From assembly GCF_039536245.1 (NCBI RefSeq), contig NZ_BAAAYN010000023.1, positions 316,875 through 380,874 on the forward strand: 64,000 bases of DNA, given 5' to 3'. This document shows positions 7,386 through 63,671 of the stretch, in pieces; within the stretch, counting starts at the first letter, position 1, and every line of letters begins with the position of its first letter. The notes beneath the pieces are model-generated. The model was not told where the DNA came from and ran no database searches. It saw only the letters and a list, made by a program, of their open reading frames with translations. This DNA comes from Cryptosporangium minutisporangium. Lineage in GTDB: Bacteria > Actinomycetota > Actinomycetes > Mycobacteriales > Cryptosporangiaceae. The translations under genes and the position numbers were made by a program.

Positions 7386-8932
7386 GACGGTCGCGTGACG
7401 GCGGCTGTCTGGCCCCGCGCCGGGTTGATCGGCCGGGGCACCCCGGCCTCGCTGCGGGCGACCTTCGCGGCATACATTCCGGTATCCGCCAGGTTGATAA
7501 ATGCGTCCCGATCGGGGTAGGCGCCTCCGTGAGACGCGGTGGCTGCGCCGATGGACACGCCGACGCGAACGGCCGACTCGTCGAGCTGGATCGGTTGACG
7601 CACGAGTTCGGCGATGCGCTCGGCCGCGTCGTCGGCGACCTCGCCCTTGATCAGAATGAGGAACTCGTCGCCACCGATCCGGCCGACCACGTCGGCATCC
7701 TCTACGGCGCCGGCCAGCCGCACCGCGATCGCCTTGAGGACCGAATCGCCGGCTCGATGCCCGTACTGGTCGTTGATCGGCTTGAAACCGTCCAGATCGC
7801 AGAGCAGCAGCGTGATGTGCCGGAGGTCGCCGTTGCGCAGCTCAGCCAACGCCTCGTCGATCTGGGCGGTGATGTGCCGCCGGTTGAACAGGCCGGTCAG
7901 CTCGTCGTGGTGCGCGTAGTGCGCTAGCTCGCGTTCGGCTTCGCACCGCTGCGCCGACAACAGTTTGAGGCGGAGCAGGACCAGCGGGACGATCAGCATC
8001 GAGCCGACCGCGAGCAGTACGCTCGCACCGTCGTCACCGCGGATAGCCTGCACCGCACCCATCAGCGGGTTGGTACACAACGCAGCGCCGATCCAGCCGA
8101 GCGGCGGCTCACCCGTGGCGGGCTTGATCCGGCCGCTCGGGAAGGTGATGTGCGGCGCGGCGGGCAGCAGGACAGCGGTCCCCATGGCCAGGTATGCCAT
8201 CATGATCAACTCGCTGGTCCACGTCGTGGTGCCGTTCACGGTCAGCACCGCACACACCTCGGCGGCGAGCGTCGTCGTCGCAGCGAGCAGCAGGTAGAAG
8301 ATCGGTCCGCGCGATTTCCTCGCCCGGAACCCGATCCGGAGCAGACAGCCCATCACGCCGCAGAGCAACATCAGGTCGACGAGCATCAGGGTCTCGCCGA
8401 GCAGGGTCGCGTCAGGGGTCAGATTGGGAGCGACCAACCCCACCCACAGCGGCGCGGCCGCGCAGAGCCCGAGAAGGCCGGCGTCCAGCATTCCGCCCGA
8501 GTCGTTCTTTCCGTGCAGGCGCAGCGCCCAGGCGGTGCCGACCAAGAGAAGCCCGTGCGCGGTCGCGATGACGAGGTCGACCGGCCGCCCTTCGGCCCGG
8601 CCGAGATGATGCTCGGTGATCCACTCCGGCCACAGGTTCATGCTGACCGCGAGCATGATCATTCCCGCCGTCGCCGTGAGCCACGGGGCCCGGTCGATCA
8701 GGTGTCGGGCCCACAGAGCCAGGGCGCACATCAGAATCGGCAGGGCCGACGCCACGGCGAAGATCACCGCACGCGGGCCCGGCCCGGCCACCGCATAAGC
8801 GATCCCGCACAGCGCCGCAGCCCCCGCGAAGCGGGCATGCACCGGCCACGCCTGCGCCGACGCCCGCGGCCACCTCGTCAATCTTCTCACCCGCCCTCCG
8901 CACCGATCGACCCATCGGTGCGGACAGGGCAT
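7280..8932 (-). CDS. Multi-pass membrane diguanylate cyclase
   Basis: 550 residues. About nine to ten hydrophobic segments (residues 35-325) are followed by a short coiled linker and a GGDEF domain (about 340-500). The cyclase motifs are intact: DELTGLFNRR, CDLDGFKPINDQYGHRAGD and RIGGDEFLIL. The usual RxxD inhibitory site upstream of GGDEF is not present (ExxD in its place), so product inhibition may be weak. It should make c-di-GMP from two GTP at the membrane. It opposes the EAL protein at 1885-3702. The C-terminal 50 residues (after PRPINPARG) are low-complexity and are read from the strand opposite the EAL remnant, so this tail was probably acquired when that fragment landed there. The start at 8932 is the most upstream; a later start is possible. 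Confidence 0.87.
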   Translation of the reverse strand: MPCPHRWVDRCGGRVRRLTRWPRASAQAWPVHARFAGAAALCGIAYAVAGPGPRAVIFAVASALPILMCALALWARHLIDRAPWLTATAGMIMLAVSMNLWPEWITEHHLGRAEGRPVDLVIATAHGLLLVGTAWALRLHGKNDSGGMLDAGLLGLCAAAPLWVGLVAPNLTPDATLLGETLMLVDLMLLCGVMGCLLRIGFRARKSRGPIFYLLLAATTTLAAEVCAVLTVNGTTTWTSELIMMAYLAMGTAVLLPAAPHITFPSGRIKPATGEPPLGWIGAALCTNPLMGAVQAIRGDDGASVLLAVGSMLIVPLVLLRLKLLSAQRCEAERELAHYAHHDELTGLFNRRHITAQIDEALAELRNGDLRHITLLLCDLDGFKPINDQYGHRAGDSVLKAIAVRLAGAVEDADVVGRIGGDEFLILIKGEVADDAAERIAELVRQPIQLDESAVRVGVSIGAATASHGGAYPDRDAFINLADTGMYAAKVARSEAGVPRPINPARGQTAAVTRPSQRVETDRRGRSGTRGAVASAASAPGGPGRPKSQP

Positions 8933-53283: not shown

Positions 53284-55872
53284 TCATTCCAGGCAACCGT
53301 CGCGAGCCAAGCGGAGCGCCAGGTCCACGCGGGAACGCACCCCGAGCTTGCGGTACGTATGGCTCAGGTGCGCCTCGACGGTCTTCGGCGACAGGTACAG
53401 CGCACCCGCCGCCTCGGCGTTAGTGGCTCCCCGCGCGACCGCCGTCGCCACCTCGATCTCCTGCGGTGTCAGCCGCTCGGACGACTCGCGCCCGCCGGAC
53501 GACGACGCCCTGGCCCCGGTCGCCGCCGACTCCGTCGCTGCCCGGCGCGCCCAGGGCACCGCGGACAGCGTCCGGAACAGCCGCTCGGCCGCGAGCAACG
53601 GCTCCCGGGCCGCTGCCGGGCGGCGGAACCGCCGCAGTGCCTCACCCGCGGCCAGCAGCGTCCGCGCCAATTCGTACGGGGTGTCGGTCCGCCGATGGTG
53701 CCGTTCCGCCCGGGCGAACTGCTCCTCGGCCTCCGCGAGGGTTCCGGCCAGCATTCCCGTGCACCGCGCAGCAGCCGCCGACTGCCATTCGCGCCCGCTC
53801 ACGTCCGCGACGCCCGCGAGCCATTCGAGCGCTTTCTCCGCCGCGGTCCGGTCACCTGCCCGCAGATGGGCCTCGACCCGGTCGGCCGCGTACGGGACGA
53901 CGCTCGGATTGGTGATCCCACCCTCGAGGGCACGGTCGTGTGCGGCGTCCAGATGCGACGCCGCGGTGCCCGCGTCGCCCCGCGCCAGCGCGTCCAAACC
54001 CAGTGCTGCGGAGAGGACGACGTCGGCGAGCCCGGCGTCCGCATCGGCGAACGCGGCCTGAGCGTTCTCGACGTGGGCCGCCAGACGCTCCTCGCGGCCG
54101 CAGGCCGCCTCGACGTAGGCCAGGAACGCGGACGCCGCACCGACGACGTGCCGTTGTCCCAGATCCTCGGCCGCGCGGCCGGCCTGGACCGCAGCCGCCC
54201 GCGCGGACGCCCACCGGCCGTTCCAGCGGTCGAGTTCGGCGCGGGTCAGCAGCAGCGCGGGCAGCGTCACCGGGGTCGGCTCGCCGGGCCGGTCGAGTAC
54301 CGTCCGCGCGTCGCCGAACCGCTCGGCGTACACGCACGACCGGGCGAGCACCAGGCGCGTCGCCGGCTCCGGGCAGACCGGCGGACCCAGAAGGAGATCG
54401 TCCACCGCGAAGACGTCGCACGTCAGTGTCGTCGGGTGCGTCGAATGCAATCGCAGGAGCCCCTCGGCGGGCCGGGTGAGCTGCCCGGTGATGCGCAGCG
54501 CCCCGTTCACGTCTCCGTTCAGCGTGGCCGGCAGCAGTGCCTCGACCAGCAGGGCGTCCGCGCGTTGCGGGTCGACCGGACGCACCGTGTCCGCGGCCTC
54601 GACCAGCGTGGCTTGCGCTCGCTCCAGCAGACCCAGACAGCCGTAGGCGCGCCCGAGGGACAGCTCCAGGTCGGCGCGCAGGCGCGGGTCGGTACGCGTG
54701 CGCGGCACGGTCTGCTCCGCCCAACGTGCCGCCAGCCACGCGTCTCCGCTGTTCAGCGCGCGCACAATGGTGCGCACGAACTGCTCCGCCGCCGGGCTGC
54801 CCGGGCCTGCTTCCCGGTCGCGGTACCACGCCCGCTCCGGTCCGGAGGACACCGCGGCCAGCGCCCGGTACGCGGCGCGGCGGGTCGCCTGCGGCACGGC
54901 GTGCAGGAGGACTCCGCGCAGCACGGGATCGCTCAGTTCGTAACGGGCGTCCGGCGCCACTCGCAGCAAGCCGGCCCACTCGGCCACGTCGAGGTCGGCG
55001 AGGTCGAGACCCGCCTCGGCGAGCGCGGCGTCGAGGACCTCCACCAGCGGTCGACGACACGCAGCGACCAGCGTGAGCGCGGTGCGGGCCGCGGCGTCCA
55101 GCGGCGCCAGCCGCTCGGTCCAGGCGGCGGCGAGCCGCTCCCCGACCGGCAGCACCGGCGGCAGCGACTCGTGCCCGGAGCGCTGGGCCGGCCCGAGCGT
55201 GGCGACCGCGGCCAGCAGTGCCGCCGGGTTGCCCCCGCCGGCGTCGAACAGCGCGTCGAGCACGCGATCGGCGACGTCGAACCCGCGGTGAGCCAGGACG
55301 CGACGCGCCTCGACGCGCCGGAGCGGACGAAGTACGGTCCGCGCCCATCCGGCCCGCTCGGCATCCAAACGCGCCACGTCCCGTCCGGCCCAGACGACGG
55401 TCGCCCGCCCGGCGGGAAGTCGTCGGAGCGCGAACATCAGCGTCCGGATCGACGCTTCGTCGGCCCGTTCCACGTCGTCGACGAGGACGAGCAGCGAACG
55501 CCGGGCGCCGGCCGCGTCGAACAGGGTGTGGGTCGCGGTACCCACCGCGTACGGGTTGAGCGCTCCGGCGCCGTTCGCGAGTGCCAGCGCCTGCTCCAGT
55601 GCCGACCGCTGGGTCGGCGGTAGCGCGTCGATCTGCGTCCGCAGTGGCTGTACGAGGTCGGCGAGGACCGCGAACGGGAGGTCACTCTCCGCCCGTCTGC
55701 CGCGGGCGGAGAGGACCTGCGCGTCGTCGGCCCTGGCGATCTCCGTGAGCAACGCGGTGCGGCCGATTCCCGGCGGCCCGGCGACGACGAGCGTCGAGCC
55801 GTACCGCTCGGGTGAGGCCCGCAACCGCCGTAGCATTCCGAGTTCTGATTCCCGGCCCAAGAGGAGCGTCAT
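53284..55872 (-). CDS. LuxR-family large ATP-binding regulator (LAL type)
   Basis: 862 residues from ATG 55872 (MTLLLGRESEL), which follows GGGGGTGAC. The N-terminal AAA domain has VVAGPPGIGRTALL, where Arg38 stands in place of the Walker A Lys, and LLVLVDDVERAD as Walker B. A long helical TPR-like middle part follows. The C-terminal LuxR helix-turn-helix reads RLTPQEIEVATAVARGATNAEA and LYLSPKTVEAHLSHTYRKLGV. LAL regulators usually need ATP binding to activate transcription; the Lys-to-Arg change may weaken hydrolysis. It lies next to the subtilase gene on the same strand, 72 bases downstream of it. Confidence 0.9.
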   Translation of the reverse strand: MTLLLGRESELGMLRRLRASPERYGSTLVVAGPPGIGRTALLTEIARADDAQVLSARGRRAESDLPFAVLADLVQPLRTQIDALPPTQRSALEQALALANGAGALNPYAVGTATHTLFDAAGARRSLLVLVDDVERADEASIRTLMFALRRLPAGRATVVWAGRDVARLDAERAGWARTVLRPLRRVEARRVLAHRGFDVADRVLDALFDAGGGNPAALLAAVATLGPAQRSGHESLPPVLPVGERLAAAWTERLAPLDAAARTALTLVAACRRPLVEVLDAALAEAGLDLADLDVAEWAGLLRVAPDARYELSDPVLRGVLLHAVPQATRRAAYRALAAVSSGPERAWYRDREAGPGSPAAEQFVRTIVRALNSGDAWLAARWAEQTVPRTRTDPRLRADLELSLGRAYGCLGLLERAQATLVEAADTVRPVDPQRADALLVEALLPATLNGDVNGALRITGQLTRPAEGLLRLHSTHPTTLTCDVFAVDDLLLGPPVCPEPATRLVLARSCVYAERFGDARTVLDRPGEPTPVTLPALLLTRAELDRWNGRWASARAAAVQAGRAAEDLGQRHVVGAASAFLAYVEAACGREERLAAHVENAQAAFADADAGLADVVLSAALGLDALARGDAGTAASHLDAAHDRALEGGITNPSVVPYAADRVEAHLRAGDRTAAEKALEWLAGVADVSGREWQSAAAARCTGMLAGTLAEAEEQFARAERHHRRTDTPYELARTLLAAGEALRRFRRPAAAREPLLAAERLFRTLSAVPWARRAATESAATGARASSSGGRESSERLTPQEIEVATAVARGATNAEAAGALYLSPKTVEAHLSHTYRKLGVRSRVDLALRLARDGCLE

Positions 55873-55944
55873 GTCACCCCCGTGACGACGAGACGCGCCG
55901 CGCGGCCGGACCCCTCCGGCCGGCCGCACCCGCGTCGTGGGCTT

Positions 55945-57435
55945 CTACTTAGTAGGAGGGCACCGCCGTTCGCTGGATACACACCGCTTTTCGTCGGCGG
56001 CACCGCAGCACGTCCGGCCCGGATACAGCACCGGTCCGACGCCCGGAAGGTGCTGCTCGCGTGCGATTCCGAGCAGTGTGTCGGCAGCCTGACGCGGGCT
56101 CTCGCCGGTGCACGACACCCGGGCGGCAATCAGCCCGGCGACCAGCGGAGCCGAGAACGACGTCCCGCTCCAGCGGGCCATCCCATCTGGGAACCGGCGC
56201 TTCTCGCCCGCGTTCGGCGGCTCCGTGCAGCGGTACTTTCCTTTCGGGAATGCATTGACGAGGCCTTCTCCCGGCGCATACACGTCGACCCAGAAGCCGT
56301 AGTTGCTGAAGTCGGCACGGCTCCGCCCGTTCGACGACAGCGCACCGACCGAGATCGCCCACTCGTAGGCGCCCGGCCAGTTGACGCGCCGCTCGCCTTC
56401 GTTCCCGGCCGGCGTCACGATCGCCATGCCGGGTAGGTGCTTGATCCGCGACTCGTAGAGCGCGTCGAACGCCATCAGCGGCAGGTCGTCCATGGTCGAC
56501 GTGGTGAACTCGAACATGACGACGTCCGGCGACCGGCTCAGCGTCTCGGCGAGCTTCTCGACGGCAAGGGCTTCGAAGACCGCGCCGGCGTTCGGAATGG
56601 TGGGGTCCGGCGGCTGCGTGATCTCGACGAACTTCTCGACGTAGACCTCCGCGTCCGGCGCGGTCACCCGGACGCACCCGGCAACGAACGTGCCGTGGCC
56701 GGCGTAGGGGCGGATCATCGTCGTCCCGCCCGGCTGGTACGGGTCCTCCGCTTCACCGTCCACGCCGGTCAGCCAGTCGTGGCGCGCGACCGACGCCTGG
56801 TCGACTCCGAGGTCCGCGACGGTCACGGTGATCCCGGCGCCCGTGCAGTGTTCGGGGCCACAGCCGCAGCCGGCCCGCGTGCTGATCTCCGGGTAGGGCC
56901 GGTGCGTACCACGCGGGACTTCTTCCGGCTCGGTGGCCGGGCACGGGTGCGGCGCGACGTAGAGCACGGACTCCGGCCGGATCGTTCCCCGCCCGACCGC
57001 GTGCTCGGTGAGCGCGTCGATGACCGCCGGCACTCGCGCCTCGCTCGCGCGCCGGTCGTCGCTGGGAGACAGCGGATCATCGCTGTCCCACGCGTCATTC
57101 TCGTAGTCGAGCCTGATGACGTCGGCGATCACCGGCCGCTGCCGGATGATCGGCTCCCCGTCGTCGTCGCGGCGGGCGCCCGGCCGATCCGACCTTTCCG
57201 GGTCGTATCCCCCGTCGCCCGGCCAGTCGCGGGCGCCGTTGCGGAGCACGGCCCGCAGGTACGACCGCAGCGCCGGGACAACCCTCGGGACATCCGCCAG
57301 CCGGACGAGCAGGCTGTGCTCGCGATACAGGAAATCCAGCCCGTCTTCCCGCCAGGAGAGTGGCGAGGCAGCTGAGCCCTTCAGGTTGTTGAGCACGAGT
57401 TGCACCTGGGCGATCAGTCGAGGATCTTCAGGCAT
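55945..57435 (-). CDS. Cytoplasmic subtilisin-like (S8) serine protease
   Basis: 496 residues, no signal peptide. The catalytic triad is Asp208 (VTVADLG), His247 (AGHGTFVAG) and Ser426 (SGTSFSAPLVAG), with oxyanion Asn345 in TPAGNEG. The first 190 residues are a distinct N-terminal region, not a standard propeptide. Cys clusters occur just before the catalytic Asp (CGCGPEHC, 190-197) and at the C-terminus (CC at 476-477, Cys485 and Cys492), perhaps for metal or disulfides. It diverges from the TPR-CHAT gene by 52 bases, an arrangement suggesting joint control and a protease pair. The ATG at 57435 has an AAGGGA upstream. Confidence 0.9.
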   Translation of the reverse strand: MPEDPRLIAQVQLVLNNLKGSAASPLSWREDGLDFLYREHSLLVRLADVPRVVPALRSYLRAVLRNGARDWPGDGGYDPERSDRPGARRDDDGEPIIRQRPVIADVIRLDYENDAWDSDDPLSPSDDRRASEARVPAVIDALTEHAVGRGTIRPESVLYVAPHPCPATEPEEVPRGTHRPYPEISTRAGCGCGPEHCTGAGITVTVADLGVDQASVARHDWLTGVDGEAEDPYQPGGTTMIRPYAGHGTFVAGCVRVTAPDAEVYVEKFVEITQPPDPTIPNAGAVFEALAVEKLAETLSRSPDVVMFEFTTSTMDDLPLMAFDALYESRIKHLPGMAIVTPAGNEGERRVNWPGAYEWAISVGALSSNGRSRADFSNYGFWVDVYAPGEGLVNAFPKGKYRCTEPPNAGEKRRFPDGMARWSGTSFSAPLVAGLIAARVSCTGESPRQAADTLLGIAREQHLPGVGPVLYPGRTCCGAADEKRCVSSERRCPPTK

Positions 57436-57487
57436 TCCGTCGGTTTCCCTTCTGTGACGCGTACTCGGATCGATTTACGATCGGGGG
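57436..57487. promoter_or_regulatory. Short divergent promoter between subtilase and TPR-CHAT genes
   Basis: Only 52 bases separate the two start codons, so both promoters and any operator overlap. An inverted repeat GATCG-ATTTA-CGATC lies at 57468-57482, immediately before the CHAT ribosome site. Its arms are short, so the call is weak. Confidence 0.4.
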
Positions 57488-60094
57488 ATGTCGGCGACGA
57501 GCGACGACATCGAACAACCGTCTACGGACGAGCTACTGACGCTCGCCCTGGCTCGCCCGAACGAGGCGCTCGCCGCCGCGCGCGCGATCCTCGCGGAGCA
57601 CCCCGGCCCCGCCCGGGCCGCCGTGGCACACCAGGCCGTCGGCGTCGTGCTGCGCGACTTCGGGAACATCTCCGACGCGATCGCCGAGCTGCGCGCCGCA
57701 GCGCGCTGGGCTCGGGCCGCCCGGGACCACGACCGGGAGACTGACGTGCTGGCCAGCCTCGGTGTCGCGCTGGTCATGTCCGGCCGGACTCGCGCAGGGC
57801 TGAGCACGCTGGAGCGGGCCGTCCGCGCTGCGGACGGGCAGCTGACCGGCCGCGTGCTGATCCGGCGGGTGTACGTGTTGTGGTCGCTCGGCCGGTACGC
57901 GGAAGCGCTGGACGATGCCCAGCGCGCCGTCGATCTGCTGGCCGACGGGGACGCGGTCTGGGCTGCCCGCGCCTATCAGCACCGGGCCGCGCTGCTGCTC
58001 GCGATGGGCGACACGACGCGGGCCGACCGGGACTACGCACGGTGCGGCGCGCTCTACGCCCAGGCGCAGCAGGACCTCGAATACGCATCGGCGCGGCAGG
58101 AGCGCGGCGCCACCGCGTTCGCCCGCGGGGACATGCCGGTCGCGCTCGCTCATCTGGACGACGCCGAGCGGATCGTCGAAAAGCTCGGCGTCTTCGATGC
58201 CGGGCTGTACGTCACCAAAACGACCGTGCTGCTCGCCGCGGGCCTGCACCGGGACGCTCTGACGACAGTCGAGTACGCCCTGGCGCGGATCAGCGAACAC
58301 CGCGGGTCGGCCACGCAGCGGTCGGAGCTGCTGCACTGCGCCGCGCTGGCCGCGCACGCGGCCGGGAAGAGCGAGACCGCGCGGGCCCACGCCCGAGAGG
58401 CGCTGCGCGCGTTCCGACAGCAGCAGCGCCCCTGGTGGGCCGCCCGCACCGAGTTGGTGTTCCTGCAGGCGCAGGAGCACCCCGGAGACGGCCTGCTCCG
58501 ACGTGCGCGCCGCCTCTCCCGGCAGCTCGACGTGCTCGATCCCGAGCAGGCGATCAGCGCTCATTTGCTCACCGCCCGGACCGCGTTCGCCGTCGGGAAG
58601 CCCGCCGTCGGCCGGTCGCACCTGCGTGCGGCTGCGGCCGGACGGCCCAGCGGCCTGTCCGGCCGGGTCTCCGCCTGTCTCGCGCAGGCGCTGCTCGCCG
58701 AGGCGGAGGGACGCCACCGCGCGATGCTCGGCGCGTGCGCCCGCGGCCTCCGCCAGTTGGACGCGTACTTACGGACGCTCGGCGCGACCGAGTTGCGAGT
58801 GCTGGCCAGCGCACAGGGATCGGATCTGGCCACGCTGGCGCTGCGGCACGCCGTCGAGCGCGCCGACGCCCGGCAAGTTCTGCAGTGGAGCGAGCGCTGG
58901 CGCGCCGCCGCGCTCGCGGTGCCCCAGGTCCGGCCGCCGGATGACACCCCGACGGCCGACCGGGACCTCGCGGCGCTGCGCAGTCTCGTCAGCCGTCTCG
59001 AAGAGGGCGCAGGTCCGCCCGGAACACCCGGCACGCTGCAGCGCGATCGGCGCCGGTTGGAGGACGCGATCCGGCGGCGCGCGCTGCTCGCGCCGGGGAG
59101 CGCGGGGTCCACCGCCCGGTTCCGGATCCGGGACCTGCTCGCCGAGCTCGGCAGCGCGACGACGCTGCTCGAACTCATCGATCTGGACGGCCAGCTGATC
59201 GCGGTCGTCGTCCGGAGCCATCGGGTGCGTCTGCACCGGGTCGGACCGACCGCGGAAGCGGCGCGCTCGCTGGCGCACGCGTTGTTCGCGCTCCGTCGCG
59301 AGGGCGGCCGTCGGGGCGTCCACCGGCTCGATCTCGGCGTCATCGGCGCCCGCCTGGAGGCCGATCTGCTCGGCGGCGCCGTACCGCTGCTCGGCGATGA
59401 CGGATCGATCGTCGTCATCCCGACCGGACGGCTGCACGCGGTGCCGTGGGGTCTGCTGCCCTCGCTCCGCGACCGGCCGACGAGCGTCATGCCCTCGGCG
59501 GCGGCGTGGCTGCGGTCCCGGCGGGCAGCGCCTCCGCCGGACGCCAAGGTCGTGCTGGTGGGCGGTCCGAAGCTGTCCACGGGGACCGCGGAGATCCAGG
59601 CGCTGAGCAGTCTGTACCCGCGAGCGGAGGTCCTCGCCCACGGCGCTGCGACCGCGGAACGGGTGATGGCCGCGATCGACGGCGCGCATCTCGTCCACAT
59701 CGCCGCGCACGGCACCTTCCGTGCGGACAGCCCGCTGTTCTCGGCGCTCGAGCTGGACGACGGCCCGCTGACCGTGTACGACCTCGAGCGGCTGCGCCGC
59801 GCACCGCACCGGGTCGTCCTCTCCAGCTGCAACTCGGCCGTCGGCGCCCCGGCCGGGGCGGACGAGCTCGTCGGGGTCGTGACGTCGCTGATCGGGCTGG
59901 GCGCGGCGGGGATGGTGGCCAGCGTCGTACCGGTCAACGACCCTGCCACGGTGCCGTTCATGTCGACGGTGCACCAGCACTTGAAGGAGGGCTGCCCACC
60001 GGGCGAGGCGCTCGCGCGCGCCCGGGGTGAGTCGGGCACGCACGAGACCGTGACACGCACGGTCGCGGAGGCCTTCATCGCGCTCGGAAGCTGA
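57488..60094 (+). CDS. TPR-CHAT caspase-like protease
   Basis: 868 residues. The first 450 are tetratricopeptide-type helical repeats (ARAAVAHQAVGVVLRDFGNI, AIAELRAAARWARAARDHDR, GLSTLERAVRAADG and so on). The C-terminal CHAT domain (about 560-868) carries the cysteine-protease dyad His741 (HIAAHGTF) and Cys781 (LSSCNSA), plus VTSLIGLGAAGMVASVVPVN. CHAT proteins belong to the caspase/separase clan and are activated by sensing events; the TPR-CHAT Csx29 of type III-E CRISPR is the best-known relative in layout. It faces the subtilase gene and converges on the unknown protein/sigma pair with only three bases between. GGGGG touches the ATG, a close spacing. Confidence 0.92.
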   Translation: MSATSDDIEQPSTDELLTLALARPNEALAAARAILAEHPGPARAAVAHQAVGVVLRDFGNISDAIAELRAAARWARAARDHDRETDVLASLGVALVMSGRTRAGLSTLERAVRAADGQLTGRVLIRRVYVLWSLGRYAEALDDAQRAVDLLADGDAVWAARAYQHRAALLLAMGDTTRADRDYARCGALYAQAQQDLEYASARQERGATAFARGDMPVALAHLDDAERIVEKLGVFDAGLYVTKTTVLLAAGLHRDALTTVEYALARISEHRGSATQRSELLHCAALAAHAAGKSETARAHAREALRAFRQQQRPWWAARTELVFLQAQEHPGDGLLRRARRLSRQLDVLDPEQAISAHLLTARTAFAVGKPAVGRSHLRAAAAGRPSGLSGRVSACLAQALLAEAEGRHRAMLGACARGLRQLDAYLRTLGATELRVLASAQGSDLATLALRHAVERADARQVLQWSERWRAAALAVPQVRPPDDTPTADRDLAALRSLVSRLEEGAGPPGTPGTLQRDRRRLEDAIRRRALLAPGSAGSTARFRIRDLLAELGSATTLLELIDLDGQLIAVVVRSHRVRLHRVGPTAEAARSLAHALFALRREGGRRGVHRLDLGVIGARLEADLLGGAVPLLGDDGSIVVIPTGRLHAVPWGLLPSLRDRPTSVMPSAAAWLRSRRAAPPPDAKVVLVGGPKLSTGTAEIQALSSLYPRAEVLAHGAATAERVMAAIDGAHLVHIAAHGTFRADSPLFSALELDDGPLTVYDLERLRRAPHRVVLSSCNSAVGAPAGADELVGVVTSLIGLGAAGMVASVVPVNDPATVPFMSTVHQHLKEGCPPGEALARARGESGTHETVTRTVAEAFIALGS

Positions 60095-60097
60095 GGC

Positions 60098-60562
60098 TCA
60101 CAGCAGCACCCAATCCGTGAGCACGCGGCCCGCGGTGGTGTCGCAGCGGAGCCGGATCCGGTTCGAGGGGAGGGGCGACATCACGAACAGCCCGCGGTCG
60201 TCGGCGCTGAGCTGCAGCAGCGCGCCGCCTTCGCTCTCCACGAAGATCTCGGCCGGCCCCGGCGGGATGAGCTGGCCGATGATCTGGTCGGACGCCACCT
60301 CCAGCTCGACCGAGAGCCGAGCCGCGTCGAACACCAGGACACGCACGTCCCCGGGCCCGGCGCGCATCGTGCTCAACGCGTCCTGCTCGACGTCGGAATC
60401 AAAAACCAGACCGGCAACGTGCAGGTCGTCGTCGACCGTGCGCCAGGAGAACAGGTGCTGGGCGTGCAGTGCCACGCGTTGCGCGATCGGACCGGTCTCC
60501 CGGACGACCTCTGCGAGGTCCGCGAAGAGATTGTCGTCGTCATCCCAGCGCTGCTTCGTCAT
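60098..60562 (-). CDS. Unknown acidic protein coupled to the sigma factor, possible anti-sigma or CHAT substrate
   Basis: 154 residues from ATG 60562. A very strong ribosome site (AGGAGGTGA, inside the sigma gene) decides this start. It overlaps the sigma gene by 23 bases. The N-terminus is acidic (RWDDDDNLFADLAEVV), and the rest is beta-rich (VDDDLHVAGLVFDSDVE, DVRVLVFDAARLSVELEV, IFVESEGGALLQLSADD). No membrane helix or signal. I know no function. Coupling to a sigma factor, and its place between sigma and a CHAT protease, make it a candidate inhibitor or cleavage target by analogy with Csx30; no sequence likeness to Csx30 is claimed. Confidence 0.75.
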   Translation of the reverse strand: MTKQRWDDDDNLFADLAEVVRETGPIAQRVALHAQHLFSWRTVDDDLHVAGLVFDSDVEQDALSTMRAGPGDVRVLVFDAARLSVELEVASDQIIGQLIPPGPAEIFVESEGGALLQLSADDRGLFVMSPLPSNRIRLRCDTTAGRVLTDWVLL

Positions 60563-61175
60563 GCCGGTCACCTCCTGCCCCGTCCGGCTGATCAGCTTCG
60601 GCGAGCAGCGTTCGTAACGCCGACGTACCGCGCAGCCGCTGCAAAGCTCTGGCCCGGGTGGGTCCAATGCTGCCGACCGGGATGCCGGTTCGCCGATGGA
60701 TCTCGGCGTAGCTGAGCGGCGGATCGACGAGCAGCAGGAGCAGCAGCTCCCGGTGACGGGGGGTCAGCTCGGCCAGGCCCGCCAGGAGGGCCTCCCGGCG
60801 CTCCAGCCGCACCATGTCGGCGTATCGCTCGGAGAAGAGGTCGGCGACCACCACGGTCTCGTCGTCCCAGACCGGATCAGCCGGAGCGTGCGCGTCGGTG
60901 CGCTGCCGGAACGATCGGACCCGGATCGCCTCGCGTTGCGCGGTGACGATGAGCCACATCGGAAGTGCCTGCGGATCCCGCAGAGTCTCGAGGTGTTCCA
61001 CGGCACGCAGCCACACCGTCTGCGCGACATCCTCGACCTCGTTCGGCTCGACCCGGTGCCGCCGGATCACGCCGACGACGAGCATGCCGTAGAGGTCGAC
61101 GATCTCCCGCCATGCGGCAGCGTCGCCCTGCACGGCCTGTTCGACCAGGGCACAGCTCCGTGACACCTCGTCCAT
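60540..61175 (-). CDS. ECF-like sigma-70 factor
   Basis: 211 residues from ATG 61175. Region 2 is VEDVAQTVWLRAVEHLETLR with PMWLIVTAQREAIRVRSFRQ. Region 4 is LTPRHRELLLLLLVDPPLSY, then AEIHRRTGIPVGSIGPTRAR. Both halves needed to bind core polymerase and promoter -10/-35 elements are present; the sigma1.1 and region 3 of housekeeping factors are missing, so it is an ECF type. The unknown acidic protein is encoded immediately after and overlaps it, as anti-sigma factors often do. A longer start at 61187 (GTG) is possible. Confidence 0.9.
   Translation of the reverse strand: MDEVSRSCALVEQAVQGDAAAWREIVDLYGMLVVGVIRRHRVEPNEVEDVAQTVWLRAVEHLETLRDPQALPMWLIVTAQREAIRVRSFRQRTDAHAPADPVWDDETVVVADLFSERYADMVRLERREALLAGLAELTPRHRELLLLLLVDPPLSYAEIHRRTGIPVGSIGPTRARALQRLRGTSALRTLLAEADQPDGAGGDRHDEAALG
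60568..60576 (-). promoter_or_regulatory. Strong internal ribosome-binding site AGGAGGTGA
   Basis: This near-perfect anti-16S match lies inside the sigma-factor coding region, eight bases before the ATG of the unknown acidic protein. It indicates high translation of that protein relative to the sigma factor, as expected if it must hold the factor in check. Confidence 0.85.
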
Positions 61176-61550
61176 CCCGACTCCCACGACCGGCGCGTGC
61201 GCAGCGTTGGAAGATCCATCTGACTGTAAGGAGGGCCGCGGGCTGCGTCAGATACATCCGCGGGTCCGGCCCAACTACGCAGACACACCGCGCGTGCGGG
61301 CTGTCCCGGTGTGCAGGCCGATCAGCAGCGCGTAGAGCACCGGATCGTCGCCAGTGGACGCGGGTGCCGGTGGACGCCGGTGGACGCCGCGACCTTCTCA
61401 CCCGGACCGGCCCGGAGTGATCGAGGGTTTCCCCCGTAGCGGCCCGAAACTGGGCCCGCGAATCCTCGAAGTCGCCCCAGCGCGCGGAGCGCCACCTCCG
61501 GCCTGCCTGATAGCGCGGATCCGGGGAGTGAATCCGAGAGGAGATGACCC
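61176..61550. other. Intergenic region of about 375 bases
   Basis: It holds the promoters for the sigma operon (leftward) and the coiled-coil gene (rightward) but no coding frame I trust. A ten-base unit GGTGGACGCC is repeated at 61369-61388. No clear -35/-10 pair or hairpin was identified. Confidence 0.5.
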
Positions 61551-62807
61551 GTGTTCGATCCCGTGAGCTTTGTGGTACTAGCCCTCGTGAATGGGATATT
61601 GAATACCGTCGCTCAAAAGGCAGCCACCGAGGGTTATGGCGCGTTCAAACGCTATCTCACCCAGCGCTACGGTACCGAGGTCGAGGTCAGCGTCGCGCAA
61701 CTCGAGAAGAATCCCCGGTCCCTCGAATATCAAAGCGACCTGGCCTGGCGGTTGCGCACTGCGGGCGCCGACAACGATCCCGAGCTGATGAGATTGGCCA
61801 GAGAGCTCACCGACCTGGTGGAGAACCCAGAGCGCTCCAGTCATTCCGAAGCCGTCGTAACGGATCCGGTTGCAGATCTTCGACGGACCACCGGAATGAA
61901 AGTGGTGAGCGGGTTACTCGAAGAGCACCTGAGTAAGGTTCTCGCAGTACGGTCGAGACACCTTGTGGAGGACAGAGACCTTCTTTCCGGCAACATCAAG
62001 GGCAGCGCGGCAGAAGTTCCGCTCGCAATCCGGGACAGCGCGACCCAATTACGCCATCGGATGCGACAGGTCATCCAGCAGATATCCACCACTATTGAAG
62101 AGTCCCGCTATCGAGAGGTCGAGGCGGCAGTCGAAGAATTTCCTGCCGGGCTCGCTGAACGACAGCGGGCCGACCGCCTGGTGCAAGCGGATAAGCTGCT
62201 CCACATTTCCTATGAGTCTCTCCGGGTCACCGTCGAGTTCTTCAGTGAGATCAATCGTAGCGTTCTCAGCCGGATCGAAGAGGAGCAGTCGCGAAGCCGG
62301 CAGGCGAACATGATGTTCGGAAACGCCGTGATGATCTACGAACTGACCGACTTCGTGATCGGCTACATCCGGTCTTTCACCCTAGGCGGCGACCTCGAAG
62401 GTCTGCGTGCCGATGCGAAAAAGCGTGTCGACGACGCACGGCGGGCGGAGAAGGAATTCGCTGCCCGCATCCGCGAGCGAGAGGTGGAGGTTGGCGTGCT
62501 GGAGCAGACGCTCGCCGATATACGCGCCCGCGAGGAGGCACTCGATCTGCTCGACCGGGAGTGGGATCGGTACCTGGGCGAGATGGGCGACATGCGCGGT
62601 CGAATCGACGAAGTTCGGCGCAGCATACCTACGCTGGAGACGATCCGAGAGAATGCCGAGCGGCAGATCACCGCACTGCAACTCGTCGCGATGCTGAATT
62701 TTCTGAAACAGAGTTCCGACTCGATCCGTCCGACGGTGGACACGCTCCAAGGATTTCGGCTTGCTCCGCTCAACGAGTCCCGCGTCCGTCGACTGCTCGG
62801 AATGTGA
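61551..62807 (+). CDS. Coiled-coil protein with a conflict-system-like N-terminal domain
   Basis: 418 residues from GTG 61551, preceded by GAGGAG. The first 90 residues (DPVSFVVLALVNGILNTVAQ, TEGYGAFKRYLTQRYG, LAWRLRTAGADNDPELMRLA) resemble an N-terminal helical module that I know from actinobacterial TIR/NTPase and other conflict-system proteins, where it couples sensor and effector. Residues about 100-250 are helical. About 260-390 form a long coiled coil (RADAKKRVDDARRAEKEFAA, IREREVEVGVLEQTLADIRA). No enzymatic motif is seen. Base and codon use is less GC-biased than in the neighbours, suggesting acquisition. It is nine bases before the next gene, so the two form an operon. Confidence 0.78.
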   Translation: MFDPVSFVVLALVNGILNTVAQKAATEGYGAFKRYLTQRYGTEVEVSVAQLEKNPRSLEYQSDLAWRLRTAGADNDPELMRLARELTDLVENPERSSHSEAVVTDPVADLRRTTGMKVVSGLLEEHLSKVLAVRSRHLVEDRDLLSGNIKGSAAEVPLAIRDSATQLRHRMRQVIQQISTTIEESRYREVEAAVEEFPAGLAERQRADRLVQADKLLHISYESLRVTVEFFSEINRSVLSRIEEEQSRSRQANMMFGNAVMIYELTDFVIGYIRSFTLGGDLEGLRADAKKRVDDARRAEKEFAARIREREVEVGVLEQTLADIRAREEALDLLDREWDRYLGEMGDMRGRIDEVRRSIPTLETIRENAERQITALQLVAMLNFLKQSSDSIRPTVDTLQGFRLAPLNESRVRRLLGM

Positions 62808-62816
62808 CGGAGCGCC

Positions 62817-63671
62817 ATGGACAACGCCCCCCGGAGTCGGCACGCCGACCTCTCGACCGAACAGCTCGAAGACCGCCTGCGCCGCGCCGATACGCCGGCC
62901 GCCGACCGGGCCGCGATCGAGTCAGAGCTCTCGCGGCGGTTCACCGAGGAACTGACCGGAGAGCGAACGTCCCCCGGGCCCGCTCCCGAGCCGCCCAATC
63001 CAGAGCCGCCCAAGCCATCGCCGCCCAGGCCCCCACCGCCCCGATCACCACCGCCCCGCACTACTCCGACCGTGGAGTTCCACGAAGCCGCACCGCCAGT
63101 GGTTGTACCGGCTTCGGCCGATCCAGGGACGTCGGACCTCGATCGGCCAACGCGGCGACGGAGTGGTGCACGCTTGTTCCGGGCGGTTCTGGTCATCGCC
63201 GTGCTCGGCGCGCTGGCGGCCGTTGCGGTGGTTTTGAAAGATCAGAACAGCTCCACGCCAACCTACTCGCAGGAGGAAAAATCCTCGGCGGACCAATTAG
63301 AGACGTGCATCGTGGATACGTGGATACTGGTCAGCGTCACCGCCGACGATGGCAGCACCTACGAAATCACCAACGGTGCTCAGGCCTACGTTTTCACTCC
63401 AAGCGGTACCGCCGCATTTAGTTCCGACGTGACCTTGGCTGGACCCAACGGAGCCGAGGTGCGAATAGTCGGCCAAACCCGCTTCACGTACACCCTGGGA
63501 GACGGCACGATCACCACGTACGCCACCTATACCACTGGCGAGATCGAATATTACACCGACGGAGTACTGCAGGACAGCCAACCGTCCTGGATGAATGACA
63601 ATGCTGTACCGCTCTCCTGTTCCGGTTCGCGTCTGGACTTCGGCGGTGGGCACTACGCGCGCAAGGGGTGA
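62817..63671 (+). CDS. Single-pass membrane protein with Pro-rich cytoplasmic linker and extracellular beta domain
   Basis: 284 residues. A charged helical N-terminus (1-50, LSTEQLEDRLRRADTPAADR) is followed by a Pro-rich linker (55-85), one membrane helix (about 120-140, LFRAVLVIAVLGALAAVAVV), and an outside domain of about 130 residues that begins CIVDTWILVSVT and ends VPLSCSGSRLDF. The latter looks like the lipocalin-like CxxxTW...C domains of actinobacterial membrane proteins. The short N-terminal helix (LSTEQLEDRL) occurs in many such proteins. It follows the coiled-coil gene by nine bases. The outside domain may sense a ligand and signal inside; this is inference. Confidence 0.75.
   Translation: MDNAPRSRHADLSTEQLEDRLRRADTPAADRAAIESELSRRFTEELTGERTSPGPAPEPPNPEPPKPSPPRPPPPRSPPPRTTPTVEFHEAAPPVVVPASADPGTSDLDRPTRRRSGARLFRAVLVIAVLGALAAVAVVLKDQNSSTPTYSQEEKSSADQLETCIVDTWILVSVTADDGSTYEITNGAQAYVFTPSGTAAFSSDVTLAGPNGAEVRIVGQTRFTYTLGDGTITTYATYTTGEIEYYTDGVLQDSQPSWMNDNAVPLSCSGSRLDFGGGHYARKG

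Follow-up and report, generated by a model that had tools for sequence, protein, structure and literature searches.

A conserved CRISPR-free cassette of actinobacteria that may link a TPR-CHAT protease to an ECF sigma factor

Within a 64,000-nucleotide stretch of the Cryptosporangium minutisporangium genome (hereafter the window), we describe a four-gene cassette that encodes a TPR-CHAT cysteine protease, an S8 (subtilisin-like) serine protease, an ECF sigma factor and a small protein. Judged by its sequence conservation, this cassette is a real, widespread module of actinobacteria. We give a probability of about 0.5 to the reading that it is a self-contained, CRISPR-free signalling module running from protease to sigma factor, in which the small protein would inhibit the sigma factor, CHAT would cut the small protein and the TPR part would sense the signal.

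Layout and conservation of the cassette

The S8 protease (496 aa; 55945-57435, minus strand; Pfam PF00082 Peptidase_S8, 3.7e-18) is encoded divergently from the TPR-CHAT protease (868 aa; 57488-60094, plus strand; Pfam CHAT, 3.6e-34, and TPR_12, 1.7e-8), their start codons being separated by 52 bp. The CHAT gene converges on that of the small protein (154 aa; 60098-60562, minus strand), a candidate anti-sigma factor and CHAT substrate with no Pfam or NCBIfam match, and 3 bp lie between the two stop codons. The small-protein gene overlaps by 23 bp the gene of the sigma factor (211 aa; 60540-61175, minus strand), a probable member of group ECF54 that is matched by TIGR02937 sigma70-ECF (5e-14), Sigma70_r2 (7e-9) and Sigma70_r4 (4e-5). 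All four reading frames are intact at these positions. The original prediction of a subtilase divergent by 52 bases from CHAT, and of CHAT converging within three bases on the sigma/small-protein pair, is thereby confirmed, and the domain matches bear out the ECF-like identity that it had given the sigma factor. Upstream of the sigma gene, two adjacent proteins without Pfam matches are encoded on the plus strand (61551-62807 and 62817-63671).

Conservation of this neighbourhood in relatives was the first check proposed earlier, and the cassette passed it. The scan of genome contigs was seeded with CHAT alone, using a narrower CHAT alignment, and is thus independent of the small protein. In the best 80 actinobacterial loci, which come from Kribbella, Streptomyces, Nonomuraea, Nocardioides, Paractinoplanes and others, all four genes are present within the fetched flanks in 71, S8 in 79 and the small protein in 75. 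Because it is kept in 71 of 80 loci, the arrangement is not due to chance. The order and orientation of the four genes vary between loci. Nevertheless stable is the placement of the sigma gene directly before that of the small protein, found in 67 of 75, 26 of 33 and 33 of 34 cases in three locus sets, and loci seeded with the small protein are mostly complete cassettes too. A profile search places small-protein homologues in 117 of the 395 genomes of the class and in 58 of its 138 genera. In order-level samples, a CHAT homologue (E≤1e-20) occurs in 23 of 24 genomes with the small protein versus 6 of 36 without it. Several of these six carry the promoter motif described below within a few kilobases of the CHAT gene, and they could hold diverged cassettes.

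The window genome itself contains a second complete cassette with its own promoter motif (L044; G000:C6:184044-200478), in which a second motif copy is followed by a SARP regulator gene and then by a large S8 protein. Elsewhere in this genome there is a third small-protein/sigma pair, more distantly related (L211; G000:C66:33519-33911), with CHAT and S8 absent from the fetched 16 kb.

The CHAT protease and its candidate substrate

His741 and Cys781, the residues by which the original prediction had recognized an intact TPR-CHAT protease, form the CHAT pair that all aligned full-length homologues retain, as in CHAT domains of clan CD. The AlphaFold2 model of CHAT (pLDDT 87.4, pTM 0.81) returns separase, Csx29 and the anti-sigma factor DdvA as Foldseek matches. 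When the model is compared by VIA-align, Csx29 is the best match (7y9x, Z 27.0 over 516 residues, rmsd 14.0), followed by separase and DdvA (8rw5, Z 22.3; 8rot, Z 21.4). The large rmsd probably stems from a TPR superhelix that curves differently in the model, and the likeness of CHAT to Csx29 is therefore one of shared architecture rather than orthology. A housekeeping-type promoter, GTGACG-N16-TACGAT, can be read from the sequence before CHAT (57454-57481, plus strand), and its TACGATC element is kept in Kribbella relatives. Since this predicted promoter ends 6 bp before the ATG, the start codon falls at about the predicted transcription start, and the CHAT transcript is probably leaderless.

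The small protein, which is soluble, was modelled confidently by AlphaFold2 (pLDDT 87.6). The model exhibits an N-terminal helix (residues 2-45), a short helix (56-63), a flexible linker (about 64-73, modelled with less certainty) with conserved Arg67/Arg74, and a C-terminal seven-strand Ig/FN3-like sandwich that resembles CarboxypepD_reg, a regulatory-like domain without peptidase activity. This Pfam family (PF13620) is matched by 14 of 33 small-protein homologues, the window protein itself having no match. The linker pattern hR-x(3-12)-R-x-h-x-F occurs in 130 of 142 homologues, compared with 1.3% of shuffles. Structure searches return only generic Ig/FN3-type domains and give no clear match for the N terminus, and Csx30 is not among the listed profile or Foldseek matches. 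Neither the small protein nor its homologues have a Pfam match to an anti-sigma domain; features of the zinc-binding type (class I/ZAS) are lacking, and most homologues have 0-1 Cys.

A link between this protein and the sigma factor, as originally predicted, is supported by their near-constant adjacency and by one natural fusion, in which a single 310-aa ORF consists of the sigma factor and then the small protein (L036). Another apparent fusion (L187) was rejected, since its domain coordinates place sigma region 4 in another frame, and only L036 counts. On the strength of the adjacency, the fusion, the model and the linker motif, we regard the small protein as a sigma partner and a plausible protease substrate, with inhibition and cleavage both putative.

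The same features can be read differently. The small protein might stay bound to sigma as a sensor or a positive cofactor and use its Ig-like domain to bind a partner or ligand, with CHAT and S8 acting on other substrates and sharing only its regulation. An Ig-like fold is typical of binding domains, the L036 fusion is reminiscent of one-component ECF factors that carry regulatory extensions, and sigma/partner pairs do exist without linked proteases. However, genomes in which the pair stands alone usually carry a CHAT homologue elsewhere (E≤1e-20, in 8 of 9), and the arginine linker is conserved, so that we hold a sensor or cofactor role to be unlikely.

A predicted promoter and the proposed switch

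Alignment of the regions upstream of the sigma gene in Kribbella relatives suggested a TGTATC element, which was then tested across all loci (2.63 Mb). Of 296 TGTATC sites, 136 are followed by CTC at a spacing of 17 and 37 at a spacing of 18, versus 0-12 at any other spacing, and in 93% of the unique sites the next base is A. The resulting motif, TGTATCA-N16/17-CTC, is common to several genera and looks like the promoter of the ECF sigma factor. In the window, the predicted promoter of the sigma/partner operon is TGTATCT-N16-CTC (61231-61256, minus strand; G000:C23:378105-378130). A predicted second copy, TGTATCC-N16-CTC, is a weaker match with C where A is usual and lies in the 3' end of the S8 gene (55956-55981, minus strand), 52 bp before a gene for a LuxR-family LAL regulator with an AAA_16 ATPase and a GerE HTH (881 aa; 53284-55929, minus strand; Pfam GerE, 6.7e-15, and AAA_16, 9.7e-14). 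This LAL gene is a candidate for local control by the sigma factor.

Across the loci, motif sites stand before sigma-led or S8-led operons, while others precede neighbouring genes for regulators of the LuxR/LAL (the window, L091, L100), SARP (L044, L046) and NarL (L037, L038, L041, L042) types. The motif precedes the LAL regulator in 36 of the 38 Streptomyces-type loci that hold one, many of these loci being close relatives, so that the counts are not independent. The window genome has nine motif sites in total, four of which belong to its two cassettes. A large regulon was rejected since whole-genome motif counts are about those of a reversed-pattern control, which suggests that the regulon is local.

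Some motif copies stand in other settings. In Kribbella (L075-L087, L089), a conserved copy just past the S8 3' end (about 7430-7500, plus strand) is directed into S8 in antisense orientation; no convincing ORF follows it, and it possibly gives rise to an antisense RNA. Elsewhere, the motif is followed by genes for an M10 matrixin-like protease (L121, 4714-6525), a helix-hairpin-helix protein (L204, 310-858), a Big_1-like protein (L104, 2461-3495) and a nucleotide cyclase (L073, 12889-13569), which are possible alternative outputs.

The S8 protease has an Asp208/His247/Ser426 catalytic triad that does not vary among 19 aligned sequences. The window protein has no signal peptide or hydrophobic segment, which agrees with its earlier description as cytoplasmic, and 120 of the 132 S8 homologues scanned are likewise cytoplasmic, without a signal. 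One clade of five loci (L049, L054, L056, L057, L058; f15/g16) encodes S8 with a Tat-type signal and lacks the TGTATC promoter motif; there, S8 may act outside the cytoplasm. A cascade of two proteases, in which S8 would cleave the small protein and CHAT would stand upstream as its sensor or activator, could explain why S8 frequently shares an operon with sigma under the same promoter (in the order S8-sigma-partner) and is almost always divergent from CHAT (78 of 79 in the CHAT-seeded set). Yet several loci (L038, L041, L042) have CHAT, partner and sigma and no S8, and S8 carries the Tat signal in the clade above. We consider such a cascade the least probable of the explanations weighed here, and quite improbable in itself.

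In the switch that we favor, the N-terminal helical part of the small soluble protein would keep the ECF sigma factor inactive, while CHAT would be made constitutively from its housekeeping promoter and stay idle until its TPR part recognizes a ligand or partner. Once activated, CHAT would cleave the small protein close to the conserved arginines of its flexible linker. The freed sigma factor would transcribe its own operon, forming a positive loop, and also the neighbouring LAL/SARP/NarL-type regulator, by which the signal would be carried further. S8 would most likely belong to the same pathway, either completing the breakdown of the cleaved fragment or acting on CHAT, to activate or limit it. 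Against this reading stand the lack of a recognizable anti-sigma domain in the partner, the loci without S8, the clade that exports S8 by Tat and has no promoter motif, and the published view of this sigma group, discussed below, in which the proteases act on sigma directly.

Genomic setting and known systems

The cassette had been proposed to be CRISPR-free, and this holds: no CRISPR-like repeats were found near the locus, and no match to the RAMP family, including Cas7-11, was found in the whole window genome, control genomes being positive. Nor was there any Rfam match near the locus. A mobile or defence-island setting is not supported, since the cassette has no phage match, PADLOC gives weak matches only, and the single plasmid-collection record that matches the small protein is a chromosome-sized replicon of Nonomuraea gerenzanensis (11.85 Mb). 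With a chromosomal locus, no phage match, one such plasmid record and no RAMP gene, the infection trigger that had been suggested finds no support. What stands of the predicted system, in which CHAT acts on the small protein and thereby on sigma, is a conserved CRISPR-free module of CHAT, substrate candidate and sigma factor, in which CHAT is closest in fold to Csx29. The regulators under the motif would argue for a developmental or metabolic role of the cassette. The LuxR/LAL and SARP families are often linked to secondary metabolism.

The neighbourhood is already published as that of ECF54, for which a conserved context of CHAT, subtilase and "carboxypeptidase" genes in actinobacteria is reported (PMC8999054, citing Huang 2015; Casas-Pastor 2021). 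As the window sigma factor likewise stands with subtilase and CHAT genes, a combination found in 71 of 80 CHAT-seeded loci, it is assigned by its neighbourhood, and probably belongs, to this group. In what PMC8999054 says of ECF54, no anti-sigma factor is recognized, and proteolysis is proposed to strike sigma itself, which the proteases would degrade directly until a signal stops its degradation. That proposal was drawn from the same gene neighbourhood, and it fits two proteases with intact active sites and the absence of a classical anti-sigma domain. It leaves unexplained, however, the near-constant adjacency of sigma and partner and their fusion, and the listed "carboxypeptidase" may be an overlooked sigma partner. 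We suspect that this annotation reflects the CarboxypepD_reg-like domain of the partner, which, as noted above, 14 of 33 homologues match. We therefore see direct proteolysis of sigma as improbable, on a par with the sensor or cofactor role. Relative to the account of ECF54 in PMC8999054, what is new here is the partner protein, the promoter, the local regulon and the Csx29-like fold.

CHAT proteins have been tied to ECF sigma factors before, through Csx29 (PMC10028731) and through the DdvS/DdvA pairing of Myxococcus xanthus (PMC4374960). DdvA resembles the cassette CHAT in its fold and in being paired with an ECF sigma factor. However, it is a transmembrane anti-sigma factor in its own right, whereas the cassette encodes a soluble CHAT and, next to sigma, a small protein as a separate product. 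In the type III CRISPR system CalpL/CalpT/CalpS, a protease cuts an anti-sigma factor and sigma is released (PMC11229360), but in contrast to the cassette CHAT, CalpL is of the Lon family, activated by cyclic oligoadenylate and CRISPR-dependent.

The type III-E CASP/Craspase shares with the cassette a TPR-CHAT protease, the Csx29 fold and the His/Cys dyad. It differs in having Cas7-11 (gRAMP), a guide and a CRISPR array, none of which was found for the cassette, while the cassette adds an S8 protease, is chromosomal and encodes a small protein with no listed Csx30 match. We tentatively propose, as a bolder claim that we hold to be somewhat less probable than the switch itself, that the cassette is a widespread, chromosomal, guide-free counterpart of CASP/Craspase, in which a Csx29-like CHAT would cut an Ig-domain anti-sigma factor in its arginine-bearing linker, so that the released ECF sigma factor would turn on its own operon together with a single adjacent pathway regulator. 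Type III-E CRISPR would then have adopted a switch that already existed. If true, this would offer an RNA-free model for TPR-CHAT proteases that drive transcription. A large actinobacterial sigma group that is uncharacterised and lies next to LuxR/LAL and SARP regulators would gain a partner protein, a promoter and a local regulon, and the puzzling Csx29-Csx30-sigma arm of type III-E CRISPR might find its ancestral context here.
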